In this document: one piece after another, positions 30,420 to 44,005 of the stretch | How the letters are laid out: each line of letters begins with the position of its first letter | How positions within the stretch are numbered: position 1 is the stretch's first letter | Assembly: GCA_021324155.1 (NCBI GenBank) | Contig: JAJPJQ010000016.1 | Coordinates: 1-64,000, forward strand | DNA length: 64,000 bases | Origin: Pseudomonadota bacterium | GTDB lineage: Bacteria > Desulfobacterota > Binatia > UBA9968 | Direction of reading: 5' to 3' | Translations under genes and position numbers: made by a program | Notes under the pieces: model-generated | The model's database searches: none | Told to the model about the DNA's origin: nothing | Seen by the model: the letters and a program-made list of their open reading frames with translations, nothing else

Positions 30420-30493
30420 GCCCCCGTAGCTCAGATGGATAGAGCACAGGATTCCTAATCCTGGGGCCGTGGGTTCGAATCCCGCCGGGGGCA
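30420..30493 (+). tRNA. tRNA-Arg (anticodon CCU)
   Basis: A full cloverleaf can be folded. Acceptor stem GCCCCCG (30420-30426) pairs with CGGGGGC (30486-30492), with discriminator A at 30493. The D arm is GCTC/GAGC. The anticodon arm is CAGGA-TTCCTAA-TCCTG with anticodon CCT, and the T arm is GTGGG-TTCGAAT-CCCGC. It decodes AGG. CCA is not encoded. Its 3' part, from within the anticodon loop onward, is the integration site of the element to the right: 46 bases from 30452 are repeated at 45617. Confidence 0.95.
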
Positions 30494-30497
30494 AATA
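30452..30497. repeat. attL (46-bp direct repeat, tRNA 3' half)
   Basis: From the anticodon loop of tRNA-Arg(CCU) to four bases past the discriminator. It is identical to 45617-45662; the bases on both sides differ (A versus T upstream, A versus T downstream). The tRNA stays intact at this end, so integration does not destroy it. Confidence 0.95.
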
Positions 30498-30783
30498 ATA
30501 ACAACAACTTAGCACGCGGCATTTTAGAAAATGTGTCCAATGCCGCCAAAATCCCGCCATCGCGGGAGAGTTGGGAAAAAACCGCAAAAATTCCTCTACT
30601 TGATTCGTTTCCCCGGCGTCAGTCGAACTTTGCCGGAGAAATTTTCCGCCACAGGATTTGCCATCCTGTACGGCCTTGTAACAGCGCGAAATTAAAGGCC
30701 ATGCCGCCACGTTGCCGCCTCGCCCGTCGAGCGCGGGGCGCGGTTCATTCGCTTTCGATTCGCTACGACGGAGGGCCGCGCTA
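30498..30783. other. Non-coding left arm of the element
   Basis: No supported gene. It holds CATTTTAGAAAATG (perfect palindrome), TCCCGC/GCGGGA (a short hairpin) and copies of TGCCGCC at 30541, 30702 and 30713. The same AATGCCGCC word recurs twice beside attR, so these may be arm-type integrase sites. Confidence 0.45.
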
Positions 30784-31251
30784 ATGGGCGGCGTGAAGGG
30801 CCGGAGCGGACCTCCGGGCAACCTGAATTCTGCGCGCAGCGGCGCGGCGTCGTACTGGCGGCGGCGCGCGCTACGCCCCGTCGACCGTTGGGTTCTACCG
30901 CTTACCGCAAAGTACGGCGCTGAGATTGTCGAGCAGAAGGGCGGGCGGGAAAACATAGCGCCGACCGTGTTGCGGCAGATTGAGCTAGCGCAGGCCGCGC
31001 GGACGGCTTGGCTTTTGGCGTTGGCCGACGAGCCGCCGAACTGGGAACGCGGCGGCGTCTACATGGGCCTTGAATTCAAAATACTGAAAGCCCTCGGCGG
31101 CGAGCGCTTTGTTAAGACGGTTACGCTTCAAGACATACTAGAGGCGCGCGTTAGCAGTGACGACCAGACACTTTCTAACGGCGACACGGCCACAGAGCCG
31201 GACAGTGCGGAGAACGTGTCACAGCGGGGCGAGCGGGGCGAAGGGCAATAA
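30784..31251 (+). CDS. Hypothetical phage-type protein
   Basis: A 155-residue protein from ATG 30784, rich in Arg/Ala and without membrane segments. The N-terminus MGGVKGRSGPPGNLNSARSGA recalls short Gly/Arg/Asn motifs at the start of small-terminase or capsid-associated phage proteins, but I do not recognise a family. A helical middle (TVLRQIELAQAARTAWLLALADE) is predicted. An in-frame upstream extension (from 30712) lacks support. It is the first gene inside attL and could be a small DNA-binding terminase-type subunit; that is speculative. Confidence 0.5.
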   Translation: MGGVKGRSGPPGNLNSARSGAASYWRRRALRPVDRWVLPLTAKYGAEIVEQKGGRENIAPTVLRQIELAQAARTAWLLALADEPPNWERGGVYMGLEFKILKALGGERFVKTVTLQDILEARVSSDDQTLSNGDTATEPDSAENVSQRGERGEGQ

Positions 31252-31266
31252 TAACGGAGGTTCAAC

Positions 31267-31623
31267 ATGAGACGCGGTAAGTGGCAACGGTTGATCTTGA
31301 GCGAGCTTGAGAAGCGCCCGGCTTTTTACGTGCGGGAAATATTGCCGAGCGGTTCCCGGCGCTCCGATTGTGTCGCCCTACACTACGCCGTGAAGCTTCT
31401 AGAGCAGCGGGGCGAGATTGGGGTCCGCCACTTTTACAAGAGCGTTGTGACGCGACCCGGCTACCAGTTCGACCGCATCGCGTACGACCGGCAGCTACGG
31501 GAAAAGCAGCGCGGAGAAAATATTGTCGAGGTTCCATCGGTGGAACATTGGCAATATTTGCCCGACACGAACGGCGACAGCGACAAGGAAAATATTGTCG
31601 AGGTTTCAGCGGTGAGACCTTAG
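31267..31623 (+). CDS. Small winged-helix-like hypothetical protein
   Basis: A 118-residue protein with a strong ACGGAGG site 9 bases before the ATG. Residues 1-75 (KWQRLILSELEKRPAFYVREIL, then ALHYAVKLLEQRGEIGVRHF) look like a winged helix, with two helices and a beta-wing. The C-terminal 35 residues contain two copies of ENIVEV, produced by a 72-base-spaced repeat with internal inverted repeats (see 31516-31632). Role perhaps transcriptional control of the element; no specific family is recognised. Confidence 0.6.
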   Translation: MRRGKWQRLILSELEKRPAFYVREILPSGSRRSDCVALHYAVKLLEQRGEIGVRHFYKSVVTRPGYQFDRIAYDRQLREKQRGENIVEVPSVEHWQYLPDTNGDSDKENIVEVSAVRP

Positions 31624-31632
31624 CAATGTTTG
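31516..31632. repeat. Two-copy nested inverted repeat upstream of the methyltransferase gene
   Basis: Copy 1: AAATATTG (31518) pairs with CAATATTT (31552), and inside it GTTCCA (31531) pairs with TGGAAC (31541). Copy 2, 72 bases later: AAATATTG (31590) with CAATGTTT (31624), and GGTTTCA (31602) with TGAGACC (31613). The changes in copy 2 keep pairing through G-T wobbles, as expected for a conserved RNA hairpin. A third, diverged trace lies at 32603-32645. Confidence 0.6.
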
Positions 31633-31658
31633 AGTGAGCAATACGGAGCGTTGAATAT

Positions 31659-32411
31659 TTGAAACCGTTTTACCAGAGCGACGACGTAACCATTTACCAC
31701 GGGCGGGCCGAGGCGGCGTTGCCGGGACCTGAACCCGGCAGCATCGACCTCGTGCTTACCGACCCGCCTTACGCCGTCTCAAAACCCGGCGAGGACATAG
31801 TTGTTACCGGCCATGCGCCGTACCGTCGCGACTTCGGCGAGTGGGATCGGGAATTTTCTCCTGCGTTTTTGCTTGAGCAGTCGGCGCGGTTACTACGTCC
31901 GGGCGGTTCGTTCGTCGCGTTCTGTAGTGACGACTTGGTCGCGAACTACCACAGCACACCGTTGAAGCATCGCAAGCTAGGCGTGTGGGCGAAAACTAAC
32001 CCGCCCTGTCGAGTTCGGCCCGGCTACCAGCACGGCGGCGAGTTGTGGGTCTACCAGACAAAGCCGGGAGCCGCGCCCACATGGAACGGCGGCGCTTGTC
32101 AGTCAAACATCATAACGACGGCGAACGCGCGCAGTACGGAAGGCCCGTTGCTTCACCCGAACCAAAAGCCGCTAGCTTTAATTTCCGGTTTCATCGCGCG
32201 CCACTCAAACCCCGGCGACTTGGTTCTAGACCCGTACATGGGGAGCGGGACAACGGCGGTAGCGTGTCGGAATTTGGGGCGGCGTTTCGTGGGCGTCGAG
32301 CAGTCAGAACAATTTTGCGCCGTAGCCGTCGAGCGCCTAGCGCAGCGAACCCTTGAGCTAGAGCAGCGCCGAGAGCCGGAGCAAGTGAGCATGTTTCAGG
32401 AGGCCGTTTGA
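31659..32411 (+). CDS. Orphan site-specific DNA methyltransferase (beta class)
   Basis: A 250-residue amino-methyltransferase from TTG 31659, with GGAG about 14 bases upstream. Catalytic motif IV DPPY is at residues 35-38, and the AdoMet motif DPYMGSGTT is at 191-199, that is, motif IV before motif I, the beta arrangement. HPNQKP at 166-171 is typical too. It modifies adenine-N6 or cytosine-N4. No restriction endonuclease is adjacent, so it is probably a phage-type anti-restriction or regulatory methylase. The C-terminus ends EQVSMFQEAV. The next gene starts inside the stop codon region (TTGA overlap). Confidence 0.9.
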   Translation: MKPFYQSDDVTIYHGRAEAALPGPEPGSIDLVLTDPPYAVSKPGEDIVVTGHAPYRRDFGEWDREFSPAFLLEQSARLLRPGGSFVAFCSDDLVANYHSTPLKHRKLGVWAKTNPPCRVRPGYQHGGELWVYQTKPGAAPTWNGGACQSNIITTANARSTEGPLLHPNQKPLALISGFIARHSNPGDLVLDPYMGSGTTAVACRNLGRRFVGVEQSEQFCAVAVERLAQRTLELEQRREPEQVSMFQEAV

Positions 32412-32686
32412 AAAACAAAAGACACCGTTGCGCACTTTGTAGTCGTTCAATCCCGGAACATGAGGAGCAATGCTCGCAATGCATGTACCGGCGCGTCATG
32501 CGCGCGGGCGGCTTATTTAAGCAGCGCGGCATGTTTCGGCGTGAGGGATGGAAGCAGAAGACTTTCGGGCAATGGAAACAGAGGCGCGAGCGGCCCGCAT
32601 CTCAGCGCAACCTTAGCGGCGAAACCCTCGGGATGTTTTTTGAATTCGAAAAAGAACAGCGCGAGCAGCGGAAAGGGCAACAGTGA
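32408..32686 (+). CDS. Small CxxC zinc-finger protein
   Basis: A 92-residue basic protein from TTG 32408, overlapping the methyltransferase stop by four bases. CALC and CSQC near residues 8-24 form a four-cysteine zinc site. The rest is Arg/Gln-rich (RREGWKQKTFGQWKQRRE), with a NLSGETLGMFF motif near residue 70. Such small zinc-binding proteins are common in phage early or cargo operons. Function unknown. Confidence 0.62.
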   Translation: MKNKRHRCALCSRSIPEHEEQCSQCMYRRVMRAGGLFKQRGMFRREGWKQKTFGQWKQRRERPASQRNLSGETLGMFFEFEKEQREQRKGQQ

Positions 32687-32949
32687 TTGACGAACTAAAT
32701 AAAGCGGCGGGCGATTTGGCGGCACGTTGGGGAGTAATCGAGGAGTTTCACACGAGGACCGGCGAAATCGCCGCCAAGATGAAGACGGCGGCGAATGCAA
32801 TCGAGCGCGGCCACGAAAGCGGCCCCGCTTTGGCGGCGGAAGTAGTGGCGGAAGCGGCGCAAGCCATAATTGAATTCGAAAAGTCATGGAACATTCTGAC
32901 ACTGGCGGAAGCGGCAGCATCGAAACAGGAAACCAAGGAGGTTCAATGA
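32683..32949 (+). CDS. Hypothetical alpha-helical protein
   Basis: An 88-residue protein from GTG 32683, overlapping the previous stop by four bases. It is almost entirely helical and Ala/Glu-rich (AAKMKTAANAIERG, AAEVVAEAAQAIIEFEKSW). There is no signal or membrane helix. It is part of a tightly overlapped run leading to the terminase. Unrecognised family. Confidence 0.55.
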   Translation: MIDELNKAAGDLAARWGVIEEFHTRTGEIAAKMKTAANAIERGHESGPALAAEVVAEAAQAIIEFEKSWNILTLAEAAASKQETKEVQ

Positions 32950-33647
32950 AGGCAGCGAGTAAAGTTGAAAAATTCAGCTTAGAGCTAGACGGCGCAAAGG
33001 CCAAGCTCGCCGCATACGAGAAAGAGCGCGACGAGCTAGCCGATAAGCGCATACCGCTTGAGAACGAGAGGGCGGCGTTAGTTTTACCGAGCCGCGACGG
33101 CGATAAAGCAGCGGCCACACGGCTAAAGACCGTCAAGGGGGAAATCGTTTCCCTTGCCGAGTCCGAGGCCGAATTGGCCGACGTTATAGAGCAGCAGCGC
33201 GAGAGAATCGCGGCGCTTGAAATCGCCGTCAGAGCCGCCATCAAACAAGCCGACAAAAACGAGCGCGACGAAATCGACAAGACGCTAGGCGCACAGGCGG
33301 CGAAGGTTGACGCGCTCCTCGCCGAGCTTGTGGCCGCGCTACAAGAACACAATGCGACGTTTGGCGAGCGGAACAGAATTAGCGCCCGTTTAGGCGACGG
33401 TCGCCCCGTGGGTCTTAAACACGCCCTGCGCACAATTTTAGCCACTGTCAGCGATCTCGAAAAATTCGGCCTAGTTCGCGAAGGCCGCGCATATAGGAGC
33501 AGTTATGCGGGACTACTGGCGCGGGCTCTAAAAGAGCGATTCGACGCGAGCGCCACAGACGCGCCGGTAGTTGACCAGGGTGCGGCGCTAGCGAATGTAA
33601 AAGAGTTCCTCGCTGAAAAGCAGAAGCGGGCGGCGGTTAACGAGTGA
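32946..33647 (+). CDS. Coiled-coil hypothetical protein
   Basis: A 233-residue protein from ATG 32946, chosen because AAGGAGG precedes it and it overlaps the prior stop as ATGA. Residues 1-125 are heptad-like and highly charged (KVEKFSLELDGAKAKLAAYE, ESEAELADVIEQQRERIAAL), predicting a long coiled coil. The C-terminal part is more globular. It may be a scaffold-like or tether protein; no family is recognised. Position before TerL is where a small terminase or DNA-recognition protein often lies. Confidence 0.6.
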   Translation: MKAASKVEKFSLELDGAKAKLAAYEKERDELADKRIPLENERAALVLPSRDGDKAAATRLKTVKGEIVSLAESEAELADVIEQQRERIAALEIAVRAAIKQADKNERDEIDKTLGAQAAKVDALLAELVAALQEHNATFGERNRISARLGDGRPVGLKHALRTILATVSDLEKFGLVREGRAYRSSYAGLLARALKERFDASATDAPVVDQGAALANVKEFLAEKQKRAAVNE

Positions 33648-34042
33648 AGTCCGACAGTGAAATTTTGAAAGCCTGGTTAGAAAAGAATCAGCCGGAGCGG
33701 CTTCCGCTTGGCATTGCGCGTCCGATTCCGAAAGTGACGCCTCGAATTCTCATGGATTCAATCTTCCCGACGAAGGCGAGGCGGCGCGTGTCGGGCGGCG
33801 GGACTTCGAAAAAGTCTCCTCGCCCGTCAACGCCGAAAAATACTAAACGGAAACGACCGGCGAAGTCCTCGGCTAGCAAGTGGCAGCGCAGCGGGTCCAG
33901 CGGCTTGACGGTTCTCGGCGTTGATAAAGACGAGGCCTTGCGAATTGTGACGGCGGCATTCGCCGCACAGGAAAGCGACGCGCAGCGGGAAGGGGAAATA
34001 AAATGTCACGTTCAGATTTTCGAGCGTAGGGCGGTGAAGTGA
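33644..34042 (+). CDS. Hypothetical basic protein
   Basis: A 132-residue protein from GTG 33644, overlapping its neighbours by four bases on both sides. The middle is strongly basic and Ser/Pro-rich (TSKKSPRPSTPKNTKRKRPA), flanked by short ordered ends (SDSEILKAWLEKN and DKDEALRIVTAAFAAQ). The basic linker suggests nucleic-acid contact. It directly precedes TerL and could be a DNA-recognition partner of it. No family recognised. Confidence 0.55.
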   Translation: MKSDSEILKAWLEKNQPERLPLGIARPIPKVTPRILMDSIFPTKARRRVSGGGTSKKSPRPSTPKNTKRKRPAKSSASKWQRSGSSGLTVLGVDKDEALRIVTAAFAAQESDAQREGEIKCHVQIFERRAVK

Positions 34043-35625
34043 GCGCAAAGAAAAAAATTAGCATCATAGAGGCGATTCACGACCGGCGACTGTTCGGCGG
34101 GCTTCCCGCGTTCAAGAGCCTTACCAGTTGGGGCGCTTGGCTTTCGTTCCTGAAAACCCTTTTCGGAATTGAAATGGACGCCGACGAGTTCGAGGCGTTC
34201 AAGAAATGCACAGGGCGAACACAGGCCCCACGAAAGGAATTCGCGGAAGCTTTTCTAATTATTGGCCGACGTGGCGGTAAATCGTTCGTCGCGGCGTTAA
34301 CCGCTGTTTTCGTCGCGGCGTTTTCGAGCTTCGCCGGACATTTGAACGTCGGCGAAGTCGCGACAATTCTAGTCTTAGCCCGCGACCGCGAACAAGCGCG
34401 CGTAGTGTTCCGTTATGCGCGCGGCATAATCGAGGCGGTTCCAGTGTTGCGGCAAATGGTCGTCAACGTCCGGGCCGACGAAATCGAATTAGACAACGGC
34501 GCGGTCCTAGCGGTGAAAACTTCCGACTATAGAGCAGTGCGCGGCGCGACCGTCGCTTGTGCCATTTGCGACGAAATTGCTTTTTGGGACAGCGAAGGCG
34601 TGAACCCGGACAACGCCGTGCTAGCAGCTTTGCGCCCGGCAATGAGCACAATTCCCGGCGCTAAACTGCTTTGCATCTCTACCGGCTACGCGAAGGCCGG
34701 AACCCTTTTTGAAAACTACCGGGATCACTTTGGCCGCGACGATTCCGACGTGCTCGTGTGGCAAGCGGACACCCGCACCATGAACCCGACCATAAGCGAA
34801 AGGCTGATTGAAAAAGAAATCGCCCGCGACCCGGAAGCGGCGCGCGCAGAGTGGGGCGGGCTTTTCCGCGAGGACGTGTCGGCGGCGTTCCCGCTAGAGC
34901 TTTTGGAGAAGTGCATAATCCCCGGGCGTTCTGTTTTACCGTACTCGCCGGACTTCGCCTACAAAGCCTTTAGCGACCCGAGCGGCGGGCGGCGTGACAA
35001 GTGGGCGCAAGCAATCGGCCACTATGACGGAAGGAAGCTCATTATTGACCGCCTCGACTTTTGGAAAAGTCCGCTGGATACGGCGGCAGTGACGGCGGAA
35101 TGCGCAAACATTCTTAAGTCCTATAGGGTCCTCGCGACAACGGGCGACAACTACGCGGGTGCGTGGCCGGTCGGTGAGTTCGCCAAGAATGGAATTGCAT
35201 ACGAGCAGGCGGCGAAACCGAAGTCAGAACTGTACTTGAGCCTGATTCCGCTTTTGTCAGCGGGCGACGTTGAGCTACCCGACAATAAAGAAATGCTGAC
35301 GGAGTTTAGACGACTAGAGCGACGGCGCGGACGTAACGGGAAAGATTCAATCGACCACTTGCCGAGTTTGTTTGATGACGTGGCAAACGCGACGGCTGGT
35401 CTATGCTATTTGCTTTCGAATGAGCGCGGGAACGTCGGGACGTTTTGGTCGGGTGGTGAACGGACGTTTGGCGGGGAGTCTGCCCTTTACGATGACGCCT
35501 TGGTCGTTGACGGCGACAGACGCGGCGGCAGTCGTTCGGCGTGGGACTTCGGCGACGACGACGGCGGGTCGCATACGCGGGAATATTTCACATGGCAAAA
35601 CGGCGGCGGCTGGCGACGTACGTAA
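34039..35625 (+). CDS. terL: Phage terminase large subunit (ATPase-nuclease)
   Basis: A 528-residue packaging motor protein. The variant Walker A is IGRRGGKS (75-82), and Walker B with catalytic acid is CAICDEIAFW (174-183; D178, E179). LLCISTGYAKAGTL is the coupling motif III. The RNase-H-like nuclease half starts near residue 305 with the acidic AFSDPSGGRRDKW strand, and a further acidic site is expected near SLFDDVANAT. Full length for the family (about 500). It starts at GTG 34039, overlapping the previous gene. No portal gene follows, which is unusual. It implies that the element packages its own DNA, perhaps into another phage's capsids. Confidence 0.9.
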   Translation: MSAKKKISIIEAIHDRRLFGGLPAFKSLTSWGAWLSFLKTLFGIEMDADEFEAFKKCTGRTQAPRKEFAEAFLIIGRRGGKSFVAALTAVFVAAFSSFAGHLNVGEVATILVLARDREQARVVFRYARGIIEAVPVLRQMVVNVRADEIELDNGAVLAVKTSDYRAVRGATVACAICDEIAFWDSEGVNPDNAVLAALRPAMSTIPGAKLLCISTGYAKAGTLFENYRDHFGRDDSDVLVWQADTRTMNPTISERLIEKEIARDPEAARAEWGGLFREDVSAAFPLELLEKCIIPGRSVLPYSPDFAYKAFSDPSGGRRDKWAQAIGHYDGRKLIIDRLDFWKSPLDTAAVTAECANILKSYRVLATTGDNYAGAWPVGEFAKNGIAYEQAAKPKSELYLSLIPLLSAGDVELPDNKEMLTEFRRLERRRGRNGKDSIDHLPSLFDDVANATAGLCYLLSNERGNVGTFWSGGERTFGGESALYDDALVVDGDRRGGSRSAWDFGDDDGGSHTREYFTWQNGGGWRRT

Positions 35626-35652
35626 AGGTAAGGGAGAGAAAGAGGCAAGGCG

Positions 35653-36630
35653 ATGACTGAGGATTTTCCGAATCAAGAGGTCTTCCGGGCGGGTCGCTGG
35701 AATAACGATGACTACTCGATTTCCGATTTGGATGCGATTTGCGAGGCGGCGGACAAGGTCGGTTTCCGAATCCCGATCAAGGTCGGCCACAGCGAAACGC
35801 AAGAGCTACCGGCAGCGGGTTTTGTGGAAAACGTTCGGCGGGTCGGCGACAAGTTGGTAGGCGATTTCAAAAATGTGCCGCGCAAAATCGCCGAGCTAAT
35901 CAAGCAGGGCGGATTTCTTTCCAAGTCCGCCGAAATTTATTGGAACTGGCAGCACGGCGCAACCGGGAAAATGTTCCCACGGGTTTTAAAAGCCGTGGCG
36001 ATTTTAGGGCAGTCAATCCCCGCTGTGTCGGGCTTGAATGACCTAGCCGGGCTCTACGACGAACGCGGGAATATTTTTCGACGTTACGAAATTAGAGAGG
36101 AGACAGAAAATATGCAGTACCTAAGTGCAAGTGACGAACTTAATAAAAAAGCGTGCGCCCACATGGACGCGACGGGCCTCGCGTATTCTAACGCGCTTAA
36201 GCACATCGCGCACGAGGAGCCGGAATTGTTCTACCGCTACGAGCGCGAACAGTCCGGGCGGGTTTATTGGGATTCGGCTTTTGGGCCGGTCGAAACGAAT
36301 CAGACCGGCGCGAGCGCTAAAAATTCTCTTGGTAGAATTCTAAGCGGTGTCCAAAAAACTCCGGGCGGGGTTTTCGACAGCGCGGACTTTGTGGCGAGCT
36401 TCGAGCGTAACCGTGCGACCGTCGAGGCGGCTGGCGCTGAAACCCTAACTCGCTTGCGGACTCAGTGGATTAAAAACAACGGCGTACCCGGACAAGAGTC
36501 GTTATGGCGCGGCACGGCGACTAAGGCGGTCTTGACTCAGCACCCCGAGCTTTCGAGCTTACTGAACGGCGGCGCAATTACACCGGAAGTGATCGCTACC
36601 ATCATGGGCCGCGAAATTTCGGTCGAGTAG
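35653..36630 (+). CDS. Putative phage prohead protease/scaffold (Mu gpI-like)
   Basis: A 325-residue protein. The N-terminal half (about 1-150) has IPIKVGHSETQELPAAGFVENVRRVGDKLVGDFKNVP and then FLSKSAEIYWNW, resembling Mu-type protease/scaffold proteins, in which a GH..PA.G pattern and a following KSAEI segment are common. The C-terminal half is helical and Ala/Glu-rich with a repeat-like TLTRLRTQWIKNNG, as in scaffold regions. It lies 27 bases after TerL. The protease assignment rests on pattern memory and genome order. Catalytic residues are not certain. The expected capsid gene downstream is missing; a structured non-coding stretch sits there instead. Confidence 0.55.
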   Translation: MTEDFPNQEVFRAGRWNNDDYSISDLDAICEAADKVGFRIPIKVGHSETQELPAAGFVENVRRVGDKLVGDFKNVPRKIAELIKQGGFLSKSAEIYWNWQHGATGKMFPRVLKAVAILGQSIPAVSGLNDLAGLYDERGNIFRRYEIREETENMQYLSASDELNKKACAHMDATGLAYSNALKHIAHEEPELFYRYEREQSGRVYWDSAFGPVETNQTGASAKNSLGRILSGVQKTPGGVFDSADFVASFERNRATVEAAGAETLTRLRTQWIKNNGVPGQESLWRGTATKAVLTQHPELSSLLNGGAITPEVIATIMGREISVE

Positions 36631-36639
36631 TTTTAACAG

Positions 36640-36846
36640 TTTCGGCGGCGCGTCCAAATTAGGCCCTGGACGCCTTAGGTCGGTGCGGACCCGCCGAAAA
36701 TAGTTTCGGGCGGCGCGCACGGCCTGCGCTCGCGTTACCGTTAGCAGCGGGACGACGCCCGAAAAGAAACCCCGAGCCCGCGCCCGTTTCGCGGCGGGAA
36801 ACCTCCCTCGGTTGCATTGTGGCGACCGAGCTGCGGGCCGGGGAAA
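36640..36846 (+). ncRNA. Candidate structured RNA with three multi-branched domains
   Basis: A 240-base gene-free interval. Domain 1: TTTCGGCGG (36640) pairs perfectly with CCGCCGAAA (36691), enclosing GCGTCC/GGACGC (36650/36668). Domain 2: TTTCGGGCG (36704) pairs with CGCCCGAAA (36756), enclosing GCGC/GCGC and CCG/CGG hairpins. Domain 3: CCCCG-GCCCGC (36770-36781, one bulged A) pairs with GCGGGC-CGGGG (36833-36843), enclosing CCCG/CGGG and CTCGGT/ACCGAG (36807/36825). Domains 1 and 2 share 5' sequence (TTTCGG..GGCGCG), so they look like a duplication. Stops occur in all plus-strand frames. It may be a separate RNA or a leader of the gene at 36871. Confidence 0.6.
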
Positions 36847-36870
36847 CTTTCTCAGTGAAAGGAAAGCAGC

Positions 36871-37203
36871 ATGGCAACAAATTTTATTCAGGGGCATAGC
36901 AGGCGGGTTTTGTTTTCGAATACCGCGTTGACGGTTCCCGGTTCTACGGGTCTAGGAGCCTACGACGTTAAAGCCTACTCGCGCTTTACTGGACTGTTTA
37001 GCGTTGTTGGTTCGCTGACGTTTCTTTACCGCCTAGGTGTGAACTCGGGAACCTACCAAGTCTCTAGCTCGTTCGTCGTTAACAGCGGCGGCAGCGCCTT
37101 TGACGTGCTTAACGTCGGCGGCAACGTCGCGGACTTCAGCTTTTCAGCGGCGAACAGTCAATCAAACGTTGTGGCCCACGTTTTGGGCGAGCCGCTACGA
37201 TGA
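36871..37203 (+). CDS. Small beta-rich virion-like hypothetical protein
   Basis: A 110-residue protein with a GAAAGGA site before ATG 36871. The sequence is Ser/Val/Gly-rich and beta-strand-like (RRVLFSNTALTVPGSTGLGAY, FLYRLGVNSGTYQVSSSFVV), without charged helices, as in phage decoration or head-tail proteins. It overlaps the next gene by four bases. It follows the structured RNA candidate directly, so its translation could be controlled by it. Family not recognised. Confidence 0.55.
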   Translation: MATNFIQGHSRRVLFSNTALTVPGSTGLGAYDVKAYSRFTGLFSVVGSLTFLYRLGVNSGTYQVSSSFVVNSGGSAFDVLNVGGNVADFSFSAANSQSNVVAHVLGEPLR

Positions 37204-37883
37204 GCATCGCACTAATAGGGACGACTGCGTATCACGTCGTAGCCGTAGCCGACCGGCGCGCAATGGTTATGGGGCCGGACGGTGAAAGCAAAATTCAAGG
37301 CGAGGATTGCACGAAGATAAAACCCGTGAGCAGCTTTGTCGGCGTCGGCGTCGTAGGCTTCGGCGGTATTGATAATATCGCCGAGACCGTACCGGATGGA
37401 CTACGAACGGAATTTCGAGAGGACAGAATCAAGCAATGGGCCGAAAACGTGCGGCGGTTATACAGCAGCGGCGGGAAGCTCTGGCCGGAGTTCTACTGGT
37501 ATTCAAGGCACGTCAAGCCGACCGCGTATCTGTTCGGTATCGACCGATACGCTAAACCGGGCATCGCTATAGTAGCGGCGCAAAATGACTTTACGCCGGA
37601 AGTCTCCCGCGCTTTTTTTCTCACGATGAACGAACCGGCAGGAATGTTGCCGGGGCGCGAGTTGGTTTCGTATCTAACACCGGGGAAAACCGTTCTCGAA
37701 GGTTGGCGCGGACCCGACGATGAAAAGCGCGCCGTACGAGATTTGACGCGCGCCCTATTGGGAATAGCGGCTGATATTCATGCGGACGGCGTTGAATCGG
37801 TCGGCGGTGATTTCGACATAATCACTATTGGAACCGGGGGTTATAACGTGCGCCGGTTTTTGAAAAAGGCTAAAGCGGCATGA
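37200..37883 (+). CDS. Putative Ntn-hydrolase (proteasome-beta/HslV-like) phage protein
   Basis: A 227-residue protein beginning MSIALIG-TTAYHVVAVADRRA. The Gly-Thr-Thr junction, the VAVADRRA strand and the later TKIKPV followed by VGVGVVGFGG mimic the start of proteasome beta subunits. There Gly(-1)/Thr1 is the self-cleavage site, Asp17 and Lys33 are catalytic and a GxxG turn follows. Here the presumed nucleophile is T8 and the Asp is D18, a shorter T-to-D distance than in proteasomes. The Lys could be K39. Middle and C-terminal parts are not obviously proteasomal. Its role in the element (virion maturation or tail processing) is inference; an inactive Ntn-fold protein is possible. Confidence 0.45.
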   Translation: MSIALIGTTAYHVVAVADRRAMVMGPDGESKIQGEDCTKIKPVSSFVGVGVVGFGGIDNIAETVPDGLRTEFREDRIKQWAENVRRLYSSGGKLWPEFYWYSRHVKPTAYLFGIDRYAKPGIAIVAAQNDFTPEVSRAFFLTMNEPAGMLPGRELVSYLTPGKTVLEGWRGPDDEKRAVRDLTRALLGIAADIHADGVESVGGDFDIITIGTGGYNVRRFLKKAKAA

Positions 37884-38575
37884 GCACGTCAGTACGCCCG
37901 ATAGACCTCGTCATAACTCCGACCTCATGCGCAGATTTATGGGGTCACATCGTCTACAGGAACACGGTTAATTGCTTCACGTCGGCGACAACAATCGGCT
38001 TTACAGCCGGAACGACGTTCAAAGATACAAACGTTACGTATGCGACTACGTATTTCTATTGGGTCGCGCCCGTCGACTTTAGTTTCAACGTCGGAAGCTG
38101 GACGGGTCCGGCGACAGGAGTCGCGAGCCACGTAGTCACGACCGACATTTCGTGCGGTGCCGTAAGTGGCGTCGTGACCTTCGCGAATGTCGGCAACATA
38201 AAAATTTCCGGCTTCGTTAGCGCCGACACGATAGGCTTTGTCACAATCACAACGCAGGGCGGGCCGGTTCTGGTAGTCGGCGGCTTCGATGCAGAGGATG
38301 AATTCTCTAATAAGCCGTTTGATGCTTTCGGCGGGATAGACCGCGACGCGATGGGTAACAACTTAGTTACAAGGCACGCGTTCATTGGCTTAAATAACGC
38401 GCAATTCAACAACACGACCGTCCAGCATTTTGAATTGAGCTACATTGACCCTAGTCCTAGCAGCGGGTCACACACATACTACCTGACCGGGACGGCGAAC
38501 GGCGGCGCGACTACCGGCAGCAATTCCTTGAACATCAAGAACCGAAATATTCAGGCGGTAGAGCTAAAGCGATAG
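37880..38575 (+). CDS. Putative tail-fibre/receptor-binding-like protein
   Basis: A 231-residue protein overlapping the previous gene by four bases. Residues 1-95 resemble a fibronectin-III-like domain (YRNTVNCFTSATTIGFTAG, DTNVTYATTYFYWVAPVDFSFN). The rest is Thr/Gly/Ser-rich and beta-like (FVSADTIGFVTITTQGG, SSGSHTYYLTGTANGG). This composition is typical of phage host-recognition or tail tip proteins. No specific family is recognised. It lies in the virion-like block after TerL. Confidence 0.5.
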   Translation: MSTSVRPIDLVITPTSCADLWGHIVYRNTVNCFTSATTIGFTAGTTFKDTNVTYATTYFYWVAPVDFSFNVGSWTGPATGVASHVVTTDISCGAVSGVVTFANVGNIKISGFVSADTIGFVTITTQGGPVLVVGGFDAEDEFSNKPFDAFGGIDRDAMGNNLVTRHAFIGLNNAQFNNTTVQHFELSYIDPSPSSGSHTYYLTGTANGGATTGSNSLNIKNRNIQAVELKR

Positions 38576-38584
38576 GAGGCGTGA

Positions 38585-38809
38585 ATGCCGAGCATCATAG
38601 TCTTTCATCCCGACACCGGCGAGATCATCGGGCGTATCAGCGTAAGCGACCCCGCGCAGCTTGCGAACTACCCGAATCACATCGAGCTTGACGCCGAGGA
38701 TTTTCAGTCGAAGCCGGAACTATGGGCCGAAGTTCACCCGCAACGGCGCGAGCTACACCCGAAGCATGGACACGCCGACCCGACGACAAAGCGGCGGCAG
38801 CGGCCTTAG
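38585..38809 (+). CDS. Small hypothetical phage protein
   Basis: A 74-residue protein with AGGAGG immediately upstream. The first part IIVFHPDTGEIIGRISVSDPAQL resembles short beta-hairpin proteins found after tail genes in many prophages; the tail is basic (RRELHPKHGHADPTTKRRQR). Last gene of the virion-like block. Function unknown. Confidence 0.5.
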   Translation: MPSIIVFHPDTGEIIGRISVSDPAQLANYPNHIELDAEDFQSKPELWAEVHPQRRELHPKHGHADPTTKRRQRP

Positions 38810-39000
38810 CTTATTTCGTGGCAGGTTTTTACCAGGACCGGCGTATAGTACCGGCCTTGATATGCGATGGCGTAAAGCGCGCTAAGCTGGCGTAAGCAGT
38901 CGGCCTCGGCTTTATGTCCGCCTAGGACAACATCGGGAGCGCCGACAAGTGGCGCCCTAACGATGAACCACCATAGGTAGACGGCTAAGAGTCTTTTCAT
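38806..39000 (-). CDS. Possible small membrane or secreted protein, leaderless
   Basis: A 64-residue frame on the minus strand starting MKRLLAVYLWWFIVRAPLVG, which looks like a signal peptide or one membrane helix, followed by a soluble tail with two Cys. A promoter-like pair (39037-39008) would begin transcription at about the start codon, so translation would be leaderless. No ribosome-binding site or family match. It sits opposite the main transcription direction of the element, as lysogenic-expressed genes often do. Confidence 0.35.
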   Translation of the reverse strand: MKRLLAVYLWWFIVRAPLVGAPDVVLGGHKAEADCLRQLSALYAIAYQGRYYTPVLVKTCHEIS

Positions 39001-39007
39001 TTGGCGA

Positions 39008-39037
39008 CATATACCACGGTTAATAGCAGAACGTAAA
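39008..39037 (-). promoter_or_regulatory. Outward promoter 1 with shared 33-bp motif
   Basis: On the minus strand TTTACG and TATATG are 18 bases apart. The full 33-base segment 39037-39005 matches 25 of 33 bases of plus-strand 39359-39391, including the identical core AACCGTGGTAT, which overlaps the -10. This suggests common control of two outward promoters. Confidence 0.45.
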
Positions 39038-39117
39038 CCGCCACCCGCATAATTAACAGTCCCAATAATTATTGACGCCGCTTTCCCGCGACCTCCACGT
39101 TTGCTATTGTCGGCCCC

Positions 39118-39351
39118 ATGAAGCGACGGCGGCAAAGGTTCTACTCGATCTCCGAAGCGGCCAAGGCGTTAGGCACTACTCGGCCCGCCGTTCACAAGGC
39201 CATTAAGCAAGGGCGGCTAGACGCCGAGCGCGGAACGTTCGAAGTCGAGCGGGTAGTTAAGACCAAAGTGCGCGGCTGGCGCATTTCGGCGGCGGCGCTC
39301 AAGGCTTACCGGGTAAGTGAAGCCCACCAGGACGCCGGGAAAAAAAACTGA
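39118..39351 (+). CDS. Small helix-turn-helix DNA-binding protein
   Basis: A 77-residue protein whose residues 8-40 (FYSISEAAKALGTTRPAVHKAIKQGRLDAE) form a MerR/excisionase-type HTH, followed by a VVKTKVRGWRISAAALKAY wing. It lies between two outward-facing promoters that share a 33-base motif, so it is a good candidate for their regulator. No clear Shine-Dalgarno sequence is seen. Confidence 0.72.
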   Translation: MKRRRQRFYSISEAAKALGTTRPAVHKAIKQGRLDAERGTFEVERVVKTKVRGWRISAAALKAYRVSEAHQDAGKKN

Positions 39352-39358
39352 CTGACGG

Positions 39359-39388
39359 TTGATGGACTGTTATAAACCGTGGTATGGG
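39359..39388 (+). promoter_or_regulatory. Outward promoter 2 with shared 33-bp motif
   Basis: TTGATG (39359-39364) and TATGGG (39383-39388) are separated by 18 bases, upstream of the AGGAGG and ATG of the 39410 gene. The -10 region contains the AACCGTGGTAT core shared with promoter 1 at 39008-39037, in inverted orientation. Confidence 0.45.
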
Positions 39389-39409
39389 TCGGCCTAGGAG
39401 GTTTGGCCC

Positions 39410-39604
39410 ATGCTCATACACGCCGAAGGCACAAACCGGGGAGACGCTCCGGTCAGGCTCTACCACATAGACCCCACTACCGGCAGCATATTTATAGGTG
39501 ACAGCAAGGCCCGCGTCATGGTGACGCCGAGCGAAGCGCGCAAGCTAGTCGAGCTACTAACCGCCGAACTCAACCGCAACGGGGTGAACCATGAAAACAG
39601 TTAG
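39410..39604 (+). CDS. Small hypothetical protein
   Basis: A 64-residue protein with a strong AGGAGG site before ATG 39410. Sequence LYHIDPTTGSIFIGDSKARV then PSEARKLVELLTAELN suggests a beta-hairpin plus helix. It overlaps the next gene by 14 bases. First gene of the early rightward run 39410-41977. No family recognised. Confidence 0.55.
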   Translation: MLIHAEGTNRGDAPVRLYHIDPTTGSIFIGDSKARVMVTPSEARKLVELLTAELNRNGVNHENS

Positions 39605-39836
39605 AACACGGCGTCAGCCCAAGCTCCGTAACGTCCGCGTCTGGGCCGAGACTGACGGCCTAAAATACTGCGTTGCCGACCGGGTCCTGCGCGACGGTTC
39701 CACGGTACAATTCAACTATGTCGAGCCGGTGAAGCGCCCTGGACGGCCCCGCGAGCGCACACATAGAAAAACTAATGTGCGCAGGAAAAAACGCGCACAA
39801 TTGCCCGTAGCGCCACGATCTCGGCCCGGCCCTTAA
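39591..39836 (+). CDS. Small basic hypothetical protein
   Basis: An 81-residue Arg/Lys-rich protein (RTRRQPKLRNVRVWAETDGL ... RPGRPRERTHRKTNVRRKKR). It starts within the end of the 39410 gene, so it is probably translationally coupled. Nucleic-acid binding is plausible from charge alone. A run of ten C residues (39845-39854) follows the gene. Confidence 0.45.
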   Translation: MKTVRTRRQPKLRNVRVWAETDGLKYCVADRVLRDGSTVQFNYVEPVKRPGRPRERTHRKTNVRRKKRAQLPVAPRSRPGP

Positions 39837-39883
39837 TCTGAGTACCCCCCCCCCGTTTTTCTGTAAAAAGTCAGCCTTGGACC

Positions 39884-39913
39884 TTGACTCGACGTATGCG
39901 AGTCCTCTAGTAT
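39884..39913 (+). promoter_or_regulatory. Promoter with overlapping operator of the RHH gene
   Basis: TTGACT (39884-39889) and TAGTAT (39908-39913), 18-base spacer, make a strong promoter. GACTCG/CGAGTC, a perfect inverted repeat with a 7-base spacer (39886-39904), fills the spacer. GTAT/ATAC and AGTA/TACT repeats follow (39910-39929). This is the expected layout for autorepression by the ribbon-helix-helix protein at 39950. Confidence 0.6.
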
Positions 39914-39949
39914 GAACGTACTAATATACGGGTGGGGGGTGAATATCCA

Positions 39950-40150
39950 ATGATGGTAACGACGACAATCAGCCTAGAAGAGGCGACCATGAAGTCGCTA
40001 AAGCATTTCGCGGTCGAACGCGGGACCAATGTCCGCGTTCTTATCCGCGAAGCAGTCGAGGAGTTTGTCCGGGAGAATATTGGCCGCAAGCTGACCGGCG
40101 GCAGCTACGCAACGCCGAAGGTGAAAAAGAAAACCGAGGTGAAACAGTGA
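39950..40150 (+). CDS. Ribbon-helix-helix (CopG/Arc-like) regulator
   Basis: A 66-residue protein from ATG 39950. TTTISLEEATMKSLKHFAVE then TNVRVLIREAVEEFVREN gives one beta strand and two helices, the RHH dimer fold that inserts a beta-sheet into the major groove. The C-terminal tail is Lys-rich. A GTG six codons upstream is possible. It is preceded by a strong promoter overlapped by inverted repeats, consistent with autoregulation of the integration genes downstream. Confidence 0.72.
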   Translation: MMVTTTISLEEATMKSLKHFAVERGTNVRVLIREAVEEFVRENIGRKLTGGSYATPKVKKKTEVKQ

Positions 40151-40500
40151 AGCACAAAACAGCGAAACCGAACGTTCAAAAAGCAATGTGGCGGCTGACG
40201 GGTGAGCCGACCGTATTGTCGCGACGGCTAGCGTTGCAGCGCATCGCGAAGATTATGCACGACGAGCCTAAAAAGCGTTGGGGCTATAAGCGCCGGGGGT
40301 ACAAATTCAGTAGGCACCCTCACGCAGAGGCGATTGTCTACTATCTCGGCGTCGGCCTCTGCTACAAGCCGATGGGATTTAGAGACACCCGAACGGGGAA
40401 GCTCGCGAGAAGGCGGCTACGTCGTCGCATTGACAACCACTATTTAGAACGGTTCGCGCGCAAAGTCGGCGCGTTGAAAGAGTGGGAAAAATTAGCGTAG
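40147..40500 (+). CDS. Hypothetical basic protein
   Basis: A 117-residue protein from GTG 40147, overlapping the RHH gene by four bases. Very basic, with KKRWGYKRRGYKFSRHPHAE in the centre and LARRRLRRRIDNHYLERFAR near the end. No signal or membrane helix. Probably cotranscribed with the RHH regulator. No family recognised; DNA or RNA binding is possible from charge. Confidence 0.5.
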   Translation: MKHKTAKPNVQKAMWRLTGEPTVLSRRLALQRIAKIMHDEPKKRWGYKRRGYKFSRHPHAEAIVYYLGVGLCYKPMGFRDTRTGKLARRRLRRRIDNHYLERFARKVGALKEWEKLA

Positions 40501-40569
40501 GCGGTGACGCCGAATAGCGTATTTCACAACGAGAACAAAAAGTGGACGGGAAGGGTAGCGTTGTGAATC

Positions 40570-40860
40570 GTGAAAATTCTTGGCGATGACTTACGAGCCG
40601 AAATCAAAGCGTTGGTCGTTGAAGCAGTCCGCGAAGTGCTGGCGGAAAATGAAAAGCGGCCCGAGCGGAAAGACTATATGACGGCTAAAGAACTAGCGGC
40701 AGAATTCGGGCTCAAGCGAACCTGGTTCGAGGCGTTGGGCCGGGCCGGTGAAATTCCGCGATGCAAGCCGGGACGGTACGTACTGTTTAAGCGTGAAGAT
40801 GTGGCGCGGTACCTGGAAAAAAACATGGAGGGTGGGCAAAATGGCAATAAACAAAACTGA
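40570..40860 (+). CDS. Excisionase-like helix-turn-helix protein
   Basis: A 96-residue protein from GTG 40570. Residues 36-75 (DYMTAKELAAEFGLKRTWFE ... GRYVLFKREDVARYL) are a standard HTH-17/excisionase domain: wHTH with recognition helix and beta-wing ending in the DVxxYL motif. Its end overlaps the integrase start by 20 bases. That coupling makes it the likely recombination directionality factor (Xis). Confidence 0.78.
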   Translation: MKILGDDLRAEIKALVVEAVREVLAENEKRPERKDYMTAKELAAEFGLKRTWFEALGRAGEIPRCKPGRYVLFKREDVARYLEKNMEGGQNGNKQN

Positions 40861-41977
40861 CGCCGATACATTCATGGTCGACTACCGCGACCAGGAAGGA
40901 AAGCGGCGGCAAAAGACTTTCGACACATATAAGGAAGCCCGAGAATATGAGAAGCGGACGCTTGGACAAATTCAGTCGGGCGAATTCATAGCGCCGTCCG
41001 GCGCGACGGTGAAGGAGATCGCCGAGAAGTGGCTTGCGCGAAAGCAAGAAGCCGGAAAGACACAGGCTGACGGAAAGTTTAAGCCGACCTACCGCCGGTC
41101 AACGCTTGCGGCATGGAAAAACCACATTGACCACCACATTGTTTCTGCTTTGGGAAAAGTAAAAATCCAACACCTCGACGTTGAGCGCGTCGAGTCGGCG
41201 GCGTCAGAGTGGGAAAAAGCCACGTCGGCCAAAACGGCAAACAAGATGCTTACGACCTTGACCGCCGTCATGGACCTAGCCTTGCGCTACAAGCTCACTC
41301 GGGAGAATCCGGCAGAGCGGGCCGAACGCTTGAAAGTCGAAACCGACGAAGAGGACGGCGAAGTCGTTACGCCGGACAAAATATACAATGAAGCCGAGCT
41401 TAAAAAGTTACTCAAGGCGTCCGAGAAGTTACCGCTTGCCGAGGGGCTCTTGGTTCGCGTCCCGGCGCTACTTGGCTTGCGTATAGGCGAAGTCCTGGGC
41501 TTAACGTGGGGCGCTATCGACTTGAAAGAGGGTAGGCTGTCCGTCCGGTTTGCGCTCGCGGACGGTGACAAGGGGAGCGGCGCGCTACTTCAACCGCCTA
41601 AGTCAAAGTCGAGCCGCCGTACCCTGGTCATGTCCGATGGACTACGGCGTGACTTCGCGGCGCTCAAGCTGGCGGCAGAACTCAAGGGCGACGACGACCT
41701 CATATTCGTGACGCCGGAAGAAAAAAAACCGTTCCACAGAAAGGCAGCGACGAAGATACTGGACCGCGCCATAATCGGGGCTGGCATCGAGCGCCGGACG
41801 TTTCATGCTTTGCGGCATACCTTCGCCTCTGTTCTCTTAATGCGCGGCAAACCCCCCGTTGAAGTCGCGGCCAAGCTTGGTCACAAGGACCCGAACGTCA
41901 CACTACGCGTTTACGCCCATTTCATCCGGCGAGAGAACGAAGCGGCCGACTTGGCCGACCTGGAGGGTGTGGGGTGA
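40841..41977 (+). CDS. int: Tyrosine recombinase/phage integrase
   Basis: A 378-residue integrase from ATG 40841. The N-terminal arm-binding part (1-50) and SAM-like core-binding domain (55-155) precede the catalytic domain. Catalytic residues: R214 (LLGLRIGEVLGL), Lys in the KSKSSRR hairpin, H322 and R325 (HALRHTF), H348 (LGHKDPN) and nucleophile Y358 (LRVYAHF). It would recombine the 46-base tRNA-Arg site. It lies mid-element, 3.6 kb from attR rather than next to an att site, which is unusual. Confidence 0.93.
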   Translation: MAINKTDADTFMVDYRDQEGKRRQKTFDTYKEAREYEKRTLGQIQSGEFIAPSGATVKEIAEKWLARKQEAGKTQADGKFKPTYRRSTLAAWKNHIDHHIVSALGKVKIQHLDVERVESAASEWEKATSAKTANKMLTTLTAVMDLALRYKLTRENPAERAERLKVETDEEDGEVVTPDKIYNEAELKKLLKASEKLPLAEGLLVRVPALLGLRIGEVLGLTWGAIDLKEGRLSVRFALADGDKGSGALLQPPKSKSSRRTLVMSDGLRRDFAALKLAAELKGDDDLIFVTPEEKKPFHRKAATKILDRAIIGAGIERRTFHALRHTFASVLLMRGKPPVEVAAKLGHKDPNVTLRVYAHFIRRENEAADLADLEGVG

Positions 41978-41998
41978 ATGGTGCAACGCGTGTTCGCT

Positions 41999-42628
41999 TT
42001 ATGCCTTATCGCGTTGCTCTTTTTGGCGCTGCCGAATGGCGGTAATCAATTCAGCTATATCGTTTACGGTATTAGCTGAGACGGTTTCATTTTGTGTAGG
42101 ACGTTGGGCGTGGTCGCGTCGATGCATGAGCAGAAACATGAGAACGCCAACCGAGAAATTGTAGCGCTCAAATGATTTTGACTTCATTGGCCCAAGCGGA
42201 AGCATGGAAGCAAGCGGAGCAACGGTGCTATCATCCGGGAGCTTTAGCTTGTCGCATCGTTGTTTAATGCTGTCGGACTCAAATGTGTGTTGTCCGTGCC
42301 CATGTGCAAGGTCGTTCCGAATCTTACGGATGAGGTTAAGGTCGTGATGCTCTGTTTTAGAGATCAAACCCAAAGCCGCCGCCAGCTCAATGCGGGAATA
42401 GAAGCTTGCAATTGGTCCGAGTCCGGTCAGCAAGCGGGGGGCGAGTTTTTTGTCGGCTATAAAAACCGCCTCAAATAGGCTCCCTAAAATATCGTCCAGG
42501 TAAGCCGCGCCGTCTAATCCATGCACGCGGAGTCCGTACTGTTGCATGATTCGAAACGTTGCCTCTAGGCTTTTCAAATCTAATCTTTTAATGTGTTCAA
42601 TTAAATTGTCGTCTCTTTTTGTTTCCAT
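41999..42628 (-). CDS. MltR/HEPN-like protein, candidate cargo or defence gene
   Basis: A 209-residue protein on the opposite strand to the element's other genes. Residues 63-110 (APRLLTGLGPIASFYSRIEL ... HHDLNLIRKIRNDLAH) closely match the MltR (mannitol-operon repressor) core. RNDLAH (R104-H109) equals the Rx4H motif of HEPN domains, many of which are RNases in toxin or antiphage systems. N- and C-terminal helical extensions are unlike a DNA-binding repressor. Upstream DNA is AT-rich, unlike the surroundings. The position behind integrase is typical for satellite cargo. RNase activity is inference. Confidence 0.7.
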   Translation of the reverse strand: METKRDDNLIEHIKRLDLKSLEATFRIMQQYGLRVHGLDGAAYLDDILGSLFEAVFIADKKLAPRLLTGLGPIASFYSRIELAAALGLISKTEHHDLNLIRKIRNDLAHGHGQHTFESDSIKQRCDKLKLPDDSTVAPLASMLPLGPMKSKSFERYNFSVGVLMFLLMHRRDHAQRPTQNETVSANTVNDIAELITAIRQRQKEQRDKA

Positions 42629-42858
42629 AACGTCGATTGTCTCACCGTTTGTGAAGTGTCGTCAAACGAGCGACTCGGGTAAGGTTATACTAAACAAGAA
42701 TATAAAGTTGGTTATAAACAAAAAAAATATATTGACTATAAAAAGATTTGGTTCCAAAATGTGTCTTAGTTCACAATAGGCGCAGGGAACGCCTAAGAGT
42801 GAATCAAAACCGCGACGGTACGGCCCGGCGCGGGATCGGTTAAAGGGTTTAGAAAATT

Positions 42859-42913
42859 AACGTCGAAGGGAGGACCCCGGTTGGGCCGGGGCCTTGCTTC
42901 GACGTTTTTTTTT
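42859..42913 (+). terminator. Long hairpin with T run: terminator or attenuator
   Basis: AACGTCGAAG (42859-42868) pairs perfectly with CTTCGACGTT (42897-42906), enclosing CCCCGG/CCGGGG, and a run of T follows to about 42913. It ends 15 bases before the 42928 gene, so it either ends a small RNA from about 42780 or attenuates the replication operon. Confidence 0.8.
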
Positions 42914-42927
42914 GGGGGAAAAAGGCA

Positions 42928-43146
42928 ATGGCAGATTTGAAGTTAAAAGCGGCGCTAGTCGGAAAGTTTCGGACGCAAACAGCCGCCTCGCGCGAGCTTA
43001 ACATTACCGAGTCCCGGCTATCACGGCTGGTCAACGGTTGGGAGCGTCCGTCAGAGAAAGAGCTTGACACGTTCGCCAAGGCGTTTGGCCGGAGCTTCGC
43101 CCACAACTACCGGCGTCGCATTGGCGATGGTGCGGAGGCGGCGTAG
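42928..43146 (+). CDS. Cro/C1-like helix-turn-helix regulator
   Basis: A 72-residue HTH_3 protein: KLKAALVGKFRTQTAASREL then NITESRLSRLVNGWERPSEKE gives helices 1-4 of a lambda Cro/C1 fold with the recognition helix TESRLSRLVNG. Lacks a dimer or protease domain. It starts 15 bases after the T run of a strong hairpin and heads the replication operon 42928-45372, so it may be the early repressor/antirepressor switch. Confidence 0.78.
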   Translation: MADLKLKAALVGKFRTQTAASRELNITESRLSRLVNGWERPSEKELDTFAKAFGRSFAHNYRRRIGDGAEAA

Positions 43147-43148
43147 CC

Positions 43149-43451
43149 GTGAGAATGCCTTTCGGAAAACACAAAGGCCGCGAGCTTCGGGACCTTCCCA
43201 ATGACTACCTCGCATGGCTTGCCGACCGCGAGCTTCGCGAGCCGTTGCGTTCGGAAGTCGAAGCCGAACGCGCGAGACGCTGCTACACGCAAGAAACCGC
43301 CGAGCAATACGACCGCGCAGTCGCCGCGCGCATCGTCGCGACTGGATACCGGCAACTTTCGAAACAGCTACACCCGGACGCGGGCGGAAGCCACGCGGAT
43401 ATGCTCGCGCTAAACGCCGCGCGGCAATACCTGGAGGGCCGTTTGCTTTGA
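43149..43451 (+). CDS. DUF3820-J-domain-like fusion
   Basis: A 100-residue protein. Residues 1-30 (MPFGKHKGRELRDLPNDYLAWL) are the DUF3820 core found in phage replication regions. The C-terminal part, YRQLSKQLHPDAGGSHADML with HPD at 75-77, has the helix-HPD-helix pattern of DnaJ J-domains, which stimulate Hsp70 ATPase. Its stop overlaps the next start by one base. Recruitment of host DnaK to the replication complex, as lambda P/DnaJ do, is an inference. Confidence 0.65.
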   Translation: MRMPFGKHKGRELRDLPNDYLAWLADRELREPLRSEVEAERARRCYTQETAEQYDRAVAARIVATGYRQLSKQLHPDAGGSHADMLALNAARQYLEGRLL

Positions 43452-44005
43452 TGGACGCTGTTTCAATTCTTGAAGTCGTTTCGCCGCACGTCGAGCTTAG
43501 ACGCGCCGGGCGTGAGTTCGTCGGGCTTTGTCCGTTCCACGCGGAGAAAACGCCTAGCTTTCACGTCAACGAAGAAAAGGGCGTCATGTATTGCCACGGT
43601 TGCCACGAGGGCGGCGATGCTTTCACATTCATTCAAAAGATGCACGGCGTTGACTTTCGCGGGGCGCTGAAAATTCTCGGCAAAGATAGCGACGGCTACC
43701 GGCCCGACCCGGAAATCATCCGGCAGCGACGGCGGCGGGAAGCCGTGGCCGCGTGGGCGCATGGTGTATCTGTTCGGCTACGCGACCGCCTCCGAGAAAT
43801 CGGCAACGAGGCGCACGTCGCGCGGAAAGTCCGGCGCGAGCTGTCCGGGGCGGACGTTGAGCTATTGCGCGAGCGCGAGGCCGACCTACGCCGTCAATGG
43901 GAAATTTTGAGCACGCTTGACGATGATATCGCGACAGACGCGACCGCCATGTACGAGACGCGGGCCGAAATCGACAGCATTTTGGAGGCGGCATGCCGGG
44001 AGTAA
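43451..44005 (+). CDS. CHC2 zinc-finger primase fragment (DnaG N-terminal domain)
   Basis: A 184-residue protein from ATG 43451. The CHC2 zinc ribbon has ligands C27, H30, C48 and C51 (LCPFHAEKTPSF ... VMYCHGCHEGGDAFTF), the template-recognition domain of DnaG-type primases. After it comes only a charged helical region; no TOPRIM catalytic core is present, so it cannot prime alone. It overlaps the helicase gene by 13 bases and may recruit DNA for it, or for the host primase. Confidence 0.85.
   Translation: MDAVSILEVVSPHVELRRAGREFVGLCPFHAEKTPSFHVNEEKGVMYCHGCHEGGDAFTFIQKMHGVDFRGALKILGKDSDGYRPDPEIIRQRRRREAVAAWAHGVSVRLRDRLREIGNEAHVARKVRRELSGADVELLREREADLRRQWEILSTLDDDIATDATAMYETRAEIDSILEAACRE

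Follow-up and report, generated by a model that had tools for sequence, protein, structure and literature searches.

Capsid-forming PICIs (cf-PICIs), a kind of integrated phage satellite, have their own terminase and head maturation protease genes and additionally encode a major capsid protein, a portal and connectors (PMC10690885). P4-like satellites combine tRNA-associated integration with a tyrosine integrase and a P4-family D5-type primase; P4 depends on the terminase and cos sites of its helper (PMC10690885). Structured intercistronic regions and mRNA leaders occur in phage and bacterial operons, where they are non-coding, lie between co-directional genes and end near a ribosome-binding site. 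P4 uses a structured RNA, the immunity RNA, located near its primase gene; the pRNA of phi29 is a multi-branched packaging RNA in a packaging gene context, analogous in size to the spacer described here; and some of the GOLLD, ROOL and OLE RNAs are associated with phages or mobile elements. GOLLD, ROOL and OLE are large, ornate bacterial non-coding RNAs of complex fold, whose structures have been reported (PMC12286853).

Here we describe a structure-rich spacer in a satellite-like element of a Binatia genome, in a window of 64,000 nt (the whole stretch of DNA analysed). Like the intercistronic regions and leaders above, the spacer is non-coding, structured, placed between co-directional genes and ends near a putative ribosome-binding site; it differs from them in its length (207 nt), its three enclosed domains, a possible swap of stem arms and the lack of an Rfam family. 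Unlike the P4 immunity RNA, it lies away from the primase gene. Unlike phi29 pRNA, it has no packaging-RNA match in Rfam even at E-values up to 5, and the accompanying terminase large subunit (TerL) is of an ordinary terminase type. GOLLD, ROOL and OLE RNAs are much larger.

A satellite-like element at tRNA-Arg(CCU)

Perfect repeats of 46 bp bound the element. The left copy (30452–30497, plus strand) lies inside and just past a tRNA-Arg(CCU) gene (30420–30493) and the identical right copy lies at 45617–45662 (plus strand), which gives the element a length of about 15.2 kb. Its plus strand encodes TerL (34039–35625; PF03354, phrog_2/9), a 325-aa head maturation protease/scaffold protein immediately upstream of the spacer (35653–36630; phrog_3894, E = 8.5e-24; phrog_976, E = 3.4e-23), a tyrosine integrase (40748–41977) and a P4/D5-type primase-helicase (43993–45372) accompanied by a primase-like ORF (43214–44005). 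A DNA methyltransferase and excisionase/HTH-like proteins are also encoded, and an ORF at 33644–34042 is, from its position, a candidate small terminase subunit (TerS). Neither profile searches nor tblastn with related capsid proteins detected capsid, portal or tail-tube genes among the main ORFs of the element, and two ORFs (37880–38575 and 38585–38809) gave weak tail-fibre-like matches.

The presence of TerL, protease, integrase and P4-type primase, with capsid, portal and tail-tube genes undetected, makes the element satellite-like; we infer that it would be mobilised by a helper. It shares TerL and protease with cf-PICIs but not the major capsid and portal proteins, and shares its tRNA-associated integration, integrase and primase with P4-like satellites but, unlike P4, has its own TerL and head protease. 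Judged by its gene content, the tRNA-Arg(CCU) element (30452–45662) is thus satellite-like and neither a cf-PICI nor a plain P4-like element. In a general PHROG search, none of the element’s matches bore the names psu, delta or sid.

Downstream of the spacer, a 110-aa ORF (36871–37203, plus strand) is preceded by a purine-rich Shine-Dalgarno-like GGAAAG just 3′ of the spacer structures, roughly 15–20 nt beyond the end of the last domain, and is followed by a larger ORF of 227 aa (37200–37883). AlphaFold models of both were of low confidence (pLDDT 38), a single-sequence model of the 110-aa ORF being uninformative. The strongest local structure of the element lies elsewhere, at 42750–42930 (z about −5 on the minus strand and −4.4 on the plus strand), in an intergenic region with a 209-aa minus-strand ORF on one side and an HTH gene at 42928 on the other; it may be a bidirectional terminator or an operator/origin region.

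The spacer and its predicted folds

Between the protease stop codon and the start codon of the 110-aa ORF lies a non-coding spacer of 240 nt (36631–36870, plus strand; GC 0.64). It contains a 207-nt stretch (36640–36846) that an earlier note, made from the letters of the window, had described as gene-free and folded into three successive multi-branched domains at the place where a capsid gene is normally found. The placement was borne out: the stretch lies directly 3′ of a head-protease gene, in a phage-like mobile element, with no capsid gene following. The claim that no frame is open through it needed narrowing; there is no sense-strand ORF of at least 60 aa, but a minus-strand ATG ORF of 112 aa (36559–36897) spans the whole 207-nt stretch. 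We rejected a minus-strand gene because this ORF, although present, has no Pfam or PHROG match; the ORF is probably spurious and the stretch therefore probably non-coding even so. A dispersed repeat or MITE was ruled out, since BLAST of the spacer against its own genome returned the self-match alone.

The three stem-enclosed domains, with outer stems of 9, 9 and 11 bp, lie one after another on the plus strand as the note had described. Domain 1 (36640–36699) is closed by a 9-bp stem, 36640–36648/36691–36699 (TTTCGGCGG/CCGCCGAAA), around a 7-bp hairpin (36650–36656/36667–36673) and a small hairpin near 36678–36691. Domain 2 (36704–36764), also closed by 9 bp (36704–36712/36756–36764; TTTCGGGCG/CGCCCGAAA), holds two hairpins, near 36715–36729 and 36733–36754. 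The 11-bp outer stem of domain 3 (36770–36843) pairs 36770–36781 with 36833–36843 around one bulged A, as CCCCG(A)GCCCGC/GCGGGC-CGGGG, and encloses two or three hairpins, CTCGGTTG/CGACCGAG among them. The shared 5′ arm of domains 1 and 2, which the note had also pointed out, takes the form of an 11-nt direct repeat (AACAGTTTCGG/AATAGTTTCGG).

The stems exist, but the three-domain layout is not the predicted minimum, because domains 1 and 2 share arms and a swapped pairing is lower in energy. In the predicted minimum free energy (MFE) structure (−105.8 kcal/mol), the outermost arms, 5′ of domain 1 and 3′ of domain 2, pair with each other, and the two arms between them form a hairpin, CCGCCGAAA-ATAG-TTTCGGGCGG (36691–36713, plus strand). 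This hairpin cannot coexist with the outer stem of either domain. The three-domain layout, at −104.6 kcal/mol, lies 1.2 kcal/mol above this, and in the equilibrium ensemble its domain 1 and 2 outer pairs have a probability of about 0.04. During transcription, we infer, local folding would give the three-domain layout an initial advantage. The two nearly isoenergetic predicted folds (arms 1:2 plus 3:4, or 2:3 plus 1:4) could be switchable; the arm swap would be either a switch or a by-product of arm duplication.

No Rfam family matched the spacer at its gathering score and none was credible at a permissive E-value (up to 5), in keeping with the earlier statement that no known RNA family has this layout; the best sub-threshold match, to serC, scored 17.4 bits, where the gathering score is 35. 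Packaging RNA, C4 antisense RNA, riboswitches and other known families were set aside on this basis. We also rejected an intrinsic terminator: the TTT...AAA flanks have the wrong orientation for the plus strand, and terminator-like matches were not above those in shuffled sequences. No promoter-like site was found in the spacer region, which suits read-through transcription of the operon.

A diverged cousin and related phage loci

One diverged cousin of the locus was found, L005 (the same as L079), in a genome (G008) of the same family as the window genome; this family also includes a related record, a Deltaproteobacteria MAG from groundwater. The two loci share the gene order TerL–protease–spacer–small ORF–larger ORF, with proteases 30–33% identical and TerL proteins about 30% identical, and L005 also carries an integrase. 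Its contig stops inside TerL, so the L005 element is incomplete. The larger ORFs (5449–6270 in L005) show marginal similarity (E = 0.002), and the 110-aa ORF shows none to its L005 counterpart. Both larger ORFs start like a proteasome-type Ntn hydrolase (MSIALIGTTAYHVVAVADRR in the window, MSLGIAFKGPEGIVLAADSR in L005), with no Pfam match.

The L005 spacer, of 187 nt, occupies the same place after the protease gene and is itself structured (z −3.2 over 187 nt and −4.6 over 180 nt). Its first domain has a 10-bp outer stem (TTTGACCGGC/GCCGGTCAAA) that begins within the last protease codons and encloses two hairpins, and its second domain (domain B) reaches z −5.4. The window and L005 spacers cannot be aligned in sequence, and neither is found by a covariance model built from the other. 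Both being structured and yet unalignable, they support a structured spacer maintained or re-made at this position rather than one conserved RNA. Elsewhere in L005, the ORF encoding a replication-like protein with an HTH domain contains a very strong inverted-repeat structure (3745–3864; z −5.9 on one strand and −5.4 on the other), which may be an intragenic replication origin.

A further cousin, present as two copies in genome G041, has TerL and protease, with a capsid gene undetected, and is without a comparable spacer. These copies, L122 and L123, are TerL–HNH-like–protease elements about 42 kb apart on contig 3 (about 248.9–253.4 kb and 291.3–295.8 kb); they are identical over roughly 4.5 kb, after which their downstream parts diverge.

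No second sequence-level homologue of the spacer was found in the genomes searched by protease, and in the 35 genomes of the order and the fetched loci searched, single-sequence covariance models built from either spacer detected no relative; those of their weak matches (E 0.1–0.7) that were checked lay in stretches without related genes. The searched parts of the IMG/VR, phage and plasmid collections likewise yielded no further copy. IMG/VR scans with the 110-aa ORF, TerL, protease and larger ORF returned no homologues, and a search of IMG/VR with a protease alignment returned 69 phage loci. Where downstream genes are readable in these protease-bearing phages, an ORF of about 119 aa and one of about 316 aa follow, presumably encoding the decoration and major capsid proteins, mostly after a gap of 0–60 nt. 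Wherever the downstream region is readable in the 69 loci, the presumed capsid gene follows and no spacer this long precedes the next gene; one locus, L011, has a gap of 132 nt. A long spacer is therefore unusual, as ordinary phages with this protease mostly have the short gap.

Searches of IMG/VR with TerL alignments returned 9 and 79 loci, and one of the 66 examined, an ordinary-looking phage contig, carries this protease. TerL relatives about 35–47% identical occur widely, in small elements and plasmids as well as in viral contigs. Those 38–47% identical include a Methylobacterium plasmid (L174, 8977–10377), a Komagataeibacter plasmid (L175, 7941–9380; the gene after TerL is annotated DUF2213) and L117–L121; these are small elements with primase and/or recombinase genes, found on alphaproteobacterial plasmids and in genomes of the window’s phylum, and the phage records searched contained almost no relatives of this kind. 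The Methylobacterium plasmid has, two genes past TerL, a very strongly folded spacer (about 11437–11620; z about −5.9) with several successive hairpins, one of the TTTTTCC...GGAA...AAAAA type. Across 43 related loci, structured windows 3′ of TerL formed scattered peaks with no common position.

Candidate functions of the spacer

The most economical reading, which we put forward tentatively, is that the spacer is a cis-acting structured intercistronic leader in the TerL–protease operon of this 15.2 kb element, which resembles a phage satellite. The reading draws directly on the stems, the alternative fold, the operon position and the structure-rich spacer in the same place in the diverged cousin. 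The operon would be transcribed through the spacer, which would then act in cis as RNA; its compact domains would separate the protease message from that of the next gene, as a barrier or a processing point, and would form a stabilising 5′ leader for the downstream message. The protease and the next gene would in this way be expressed in different amounts, and the arms shared by domains 1 and 2 may allow this to be switched. Several observations speak against this reading: the two spacers that do not align, the modest folding energy of the window spacer as a whole and its absence from the peaks of a sliding scan, the better minus-strand folding of domain 1, the missing promoter-like site, the dissimilar small ORFs of the two loci, and the G041 cousin, which has TerL and protease but no such spacer. 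The earlier note had proposed a structured RNA or cis-leader, perhaps for packaging or late-gene control; the structured part of that proposal agrees with the structure-rich spacer, the absence of an Rfam match and the structured counterpart in L005, while nothing found here bears out packaging or a discrete transcript. The spacer may be a new structured leader, matching no Rfam family, and because it is known from two unalignable examples with modest statistics, we treat it as a candidate of a known kind and not as a new class.

A somewhat unlikely alternative is that the spacer is GC-rich, palindrome-rich intergenic filler without specific function, its domains being mostly what a GC-rich sequence would be expected to give, together with a small local duplication of the domain 1 and 2 arms. 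Comparison with shuffled sequences, which the earlier note had suggested, gave a mixed answer: domain 3 folds clearly better (z about −3.9), domains 1 and 2 do not by energy alone (z −1.7 and −1.1), and the 207 nt as a whole do so modestly (z −2.15; 7 of 200 shuffles fold at least as well). A sliding 120-nt scan of the element (255 windows) does not place the spacer among its structured peaks, the window’s genome has 5.5 stems of 9 bp or more per 10 kb, and the lack of a homologue by sequence or covariance model would also suit filler. Domain 3 and the structured L005 counterpart speak against filler, and so does the shuffling result for the stems: 0.15% of dinucleotide shuffles (n = 2000; P = 0.0015) contained a pair of perfect, disjoint stems each 9 bp or longer. 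Stems of the TTT...AAA type that have this spacing and at least 9 bp number three in 411 kb of the same genome (G000), two of them in the spacer, and the sole example in the 131 kb of G008 examined is the one in the L005 spacer.

The cis-leader must also be weighed against a site acting as DNA, an unlikely reading in which the palindromes are recognised by protein, for example as a packaging (pac/cos) site by the terminase genes, or as a replication or regulatory site. The spacer does lie within the terminase–protease cluster of an element with its own TerL, and perfect inverted repeats with repeated half-sites would suit a DNA-binding dimer or a cruciform. DNA palindromes do not, however, require one strand to fold better than the other, and both spacers fold better overall as the plus strand than as the minus strand (z −2.3 versus −1.5 in the window, −4.6 versus −3.3 in L005). 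RNA is therefore mildly favoured over DNA, although domain 1 by itself behaves in the opposite way and folds better as the minus strand. The primase is 7–9 kb distant, and the window and L005 spacers share no DNA motif.

Rather less probable is a discrete, trans-acting structured satellite RNA, for example one that redirects packaging or interferes with a helper phage. Satellites divert helper encapsidation by several routes (PMC10690885), and a multi-domain fold with no open sense frame would fit such an RNA, as would the fact that a cis target is not proven. Promoter- and terminator-like sites particular to the spacer did not exceed chance, though, and the spacer sits midway in a co-directional gene series; the Rfam searches, at gathering score and at a permissive E-value, likewise speak against it. 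We consider it very improbable that a capsid-less satellite family with its own terminase and head protease uses a structured RNA at the capsid-gene position to hijack helper heads, the RNA either serving in packaging or switching protease dosage, and the two members being alike in where the fold lies and in its style but not in sequence. That the spacer is the decayed remains of the decoration or capsid gene that directly follows this protease in ordinary phages and is absent here is scarcely credible: tblastn of the decoration and capsid proteins of 12 related phage loci gave no convincing similarity to the spacer, whose sequence is palindromic, not codon-like, and whose length falls far short of that of a capsid gene.

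As a cis-leader, the spacer is at present a candidate, represented by two examples that give no homologous alignment. Should it function at the RNA level, it would add a new structured element to a little-described, satellite-like group with terminase and protease and a capsid gene undetected, and would offer a way to study how these elements balance the genes acting on their helper’s heads. The element family itself, comprising small TerL-bearing elements in groundwater Deltaproteobacteria and on alphaproteobacterial plasmids, may be the more durable finding.
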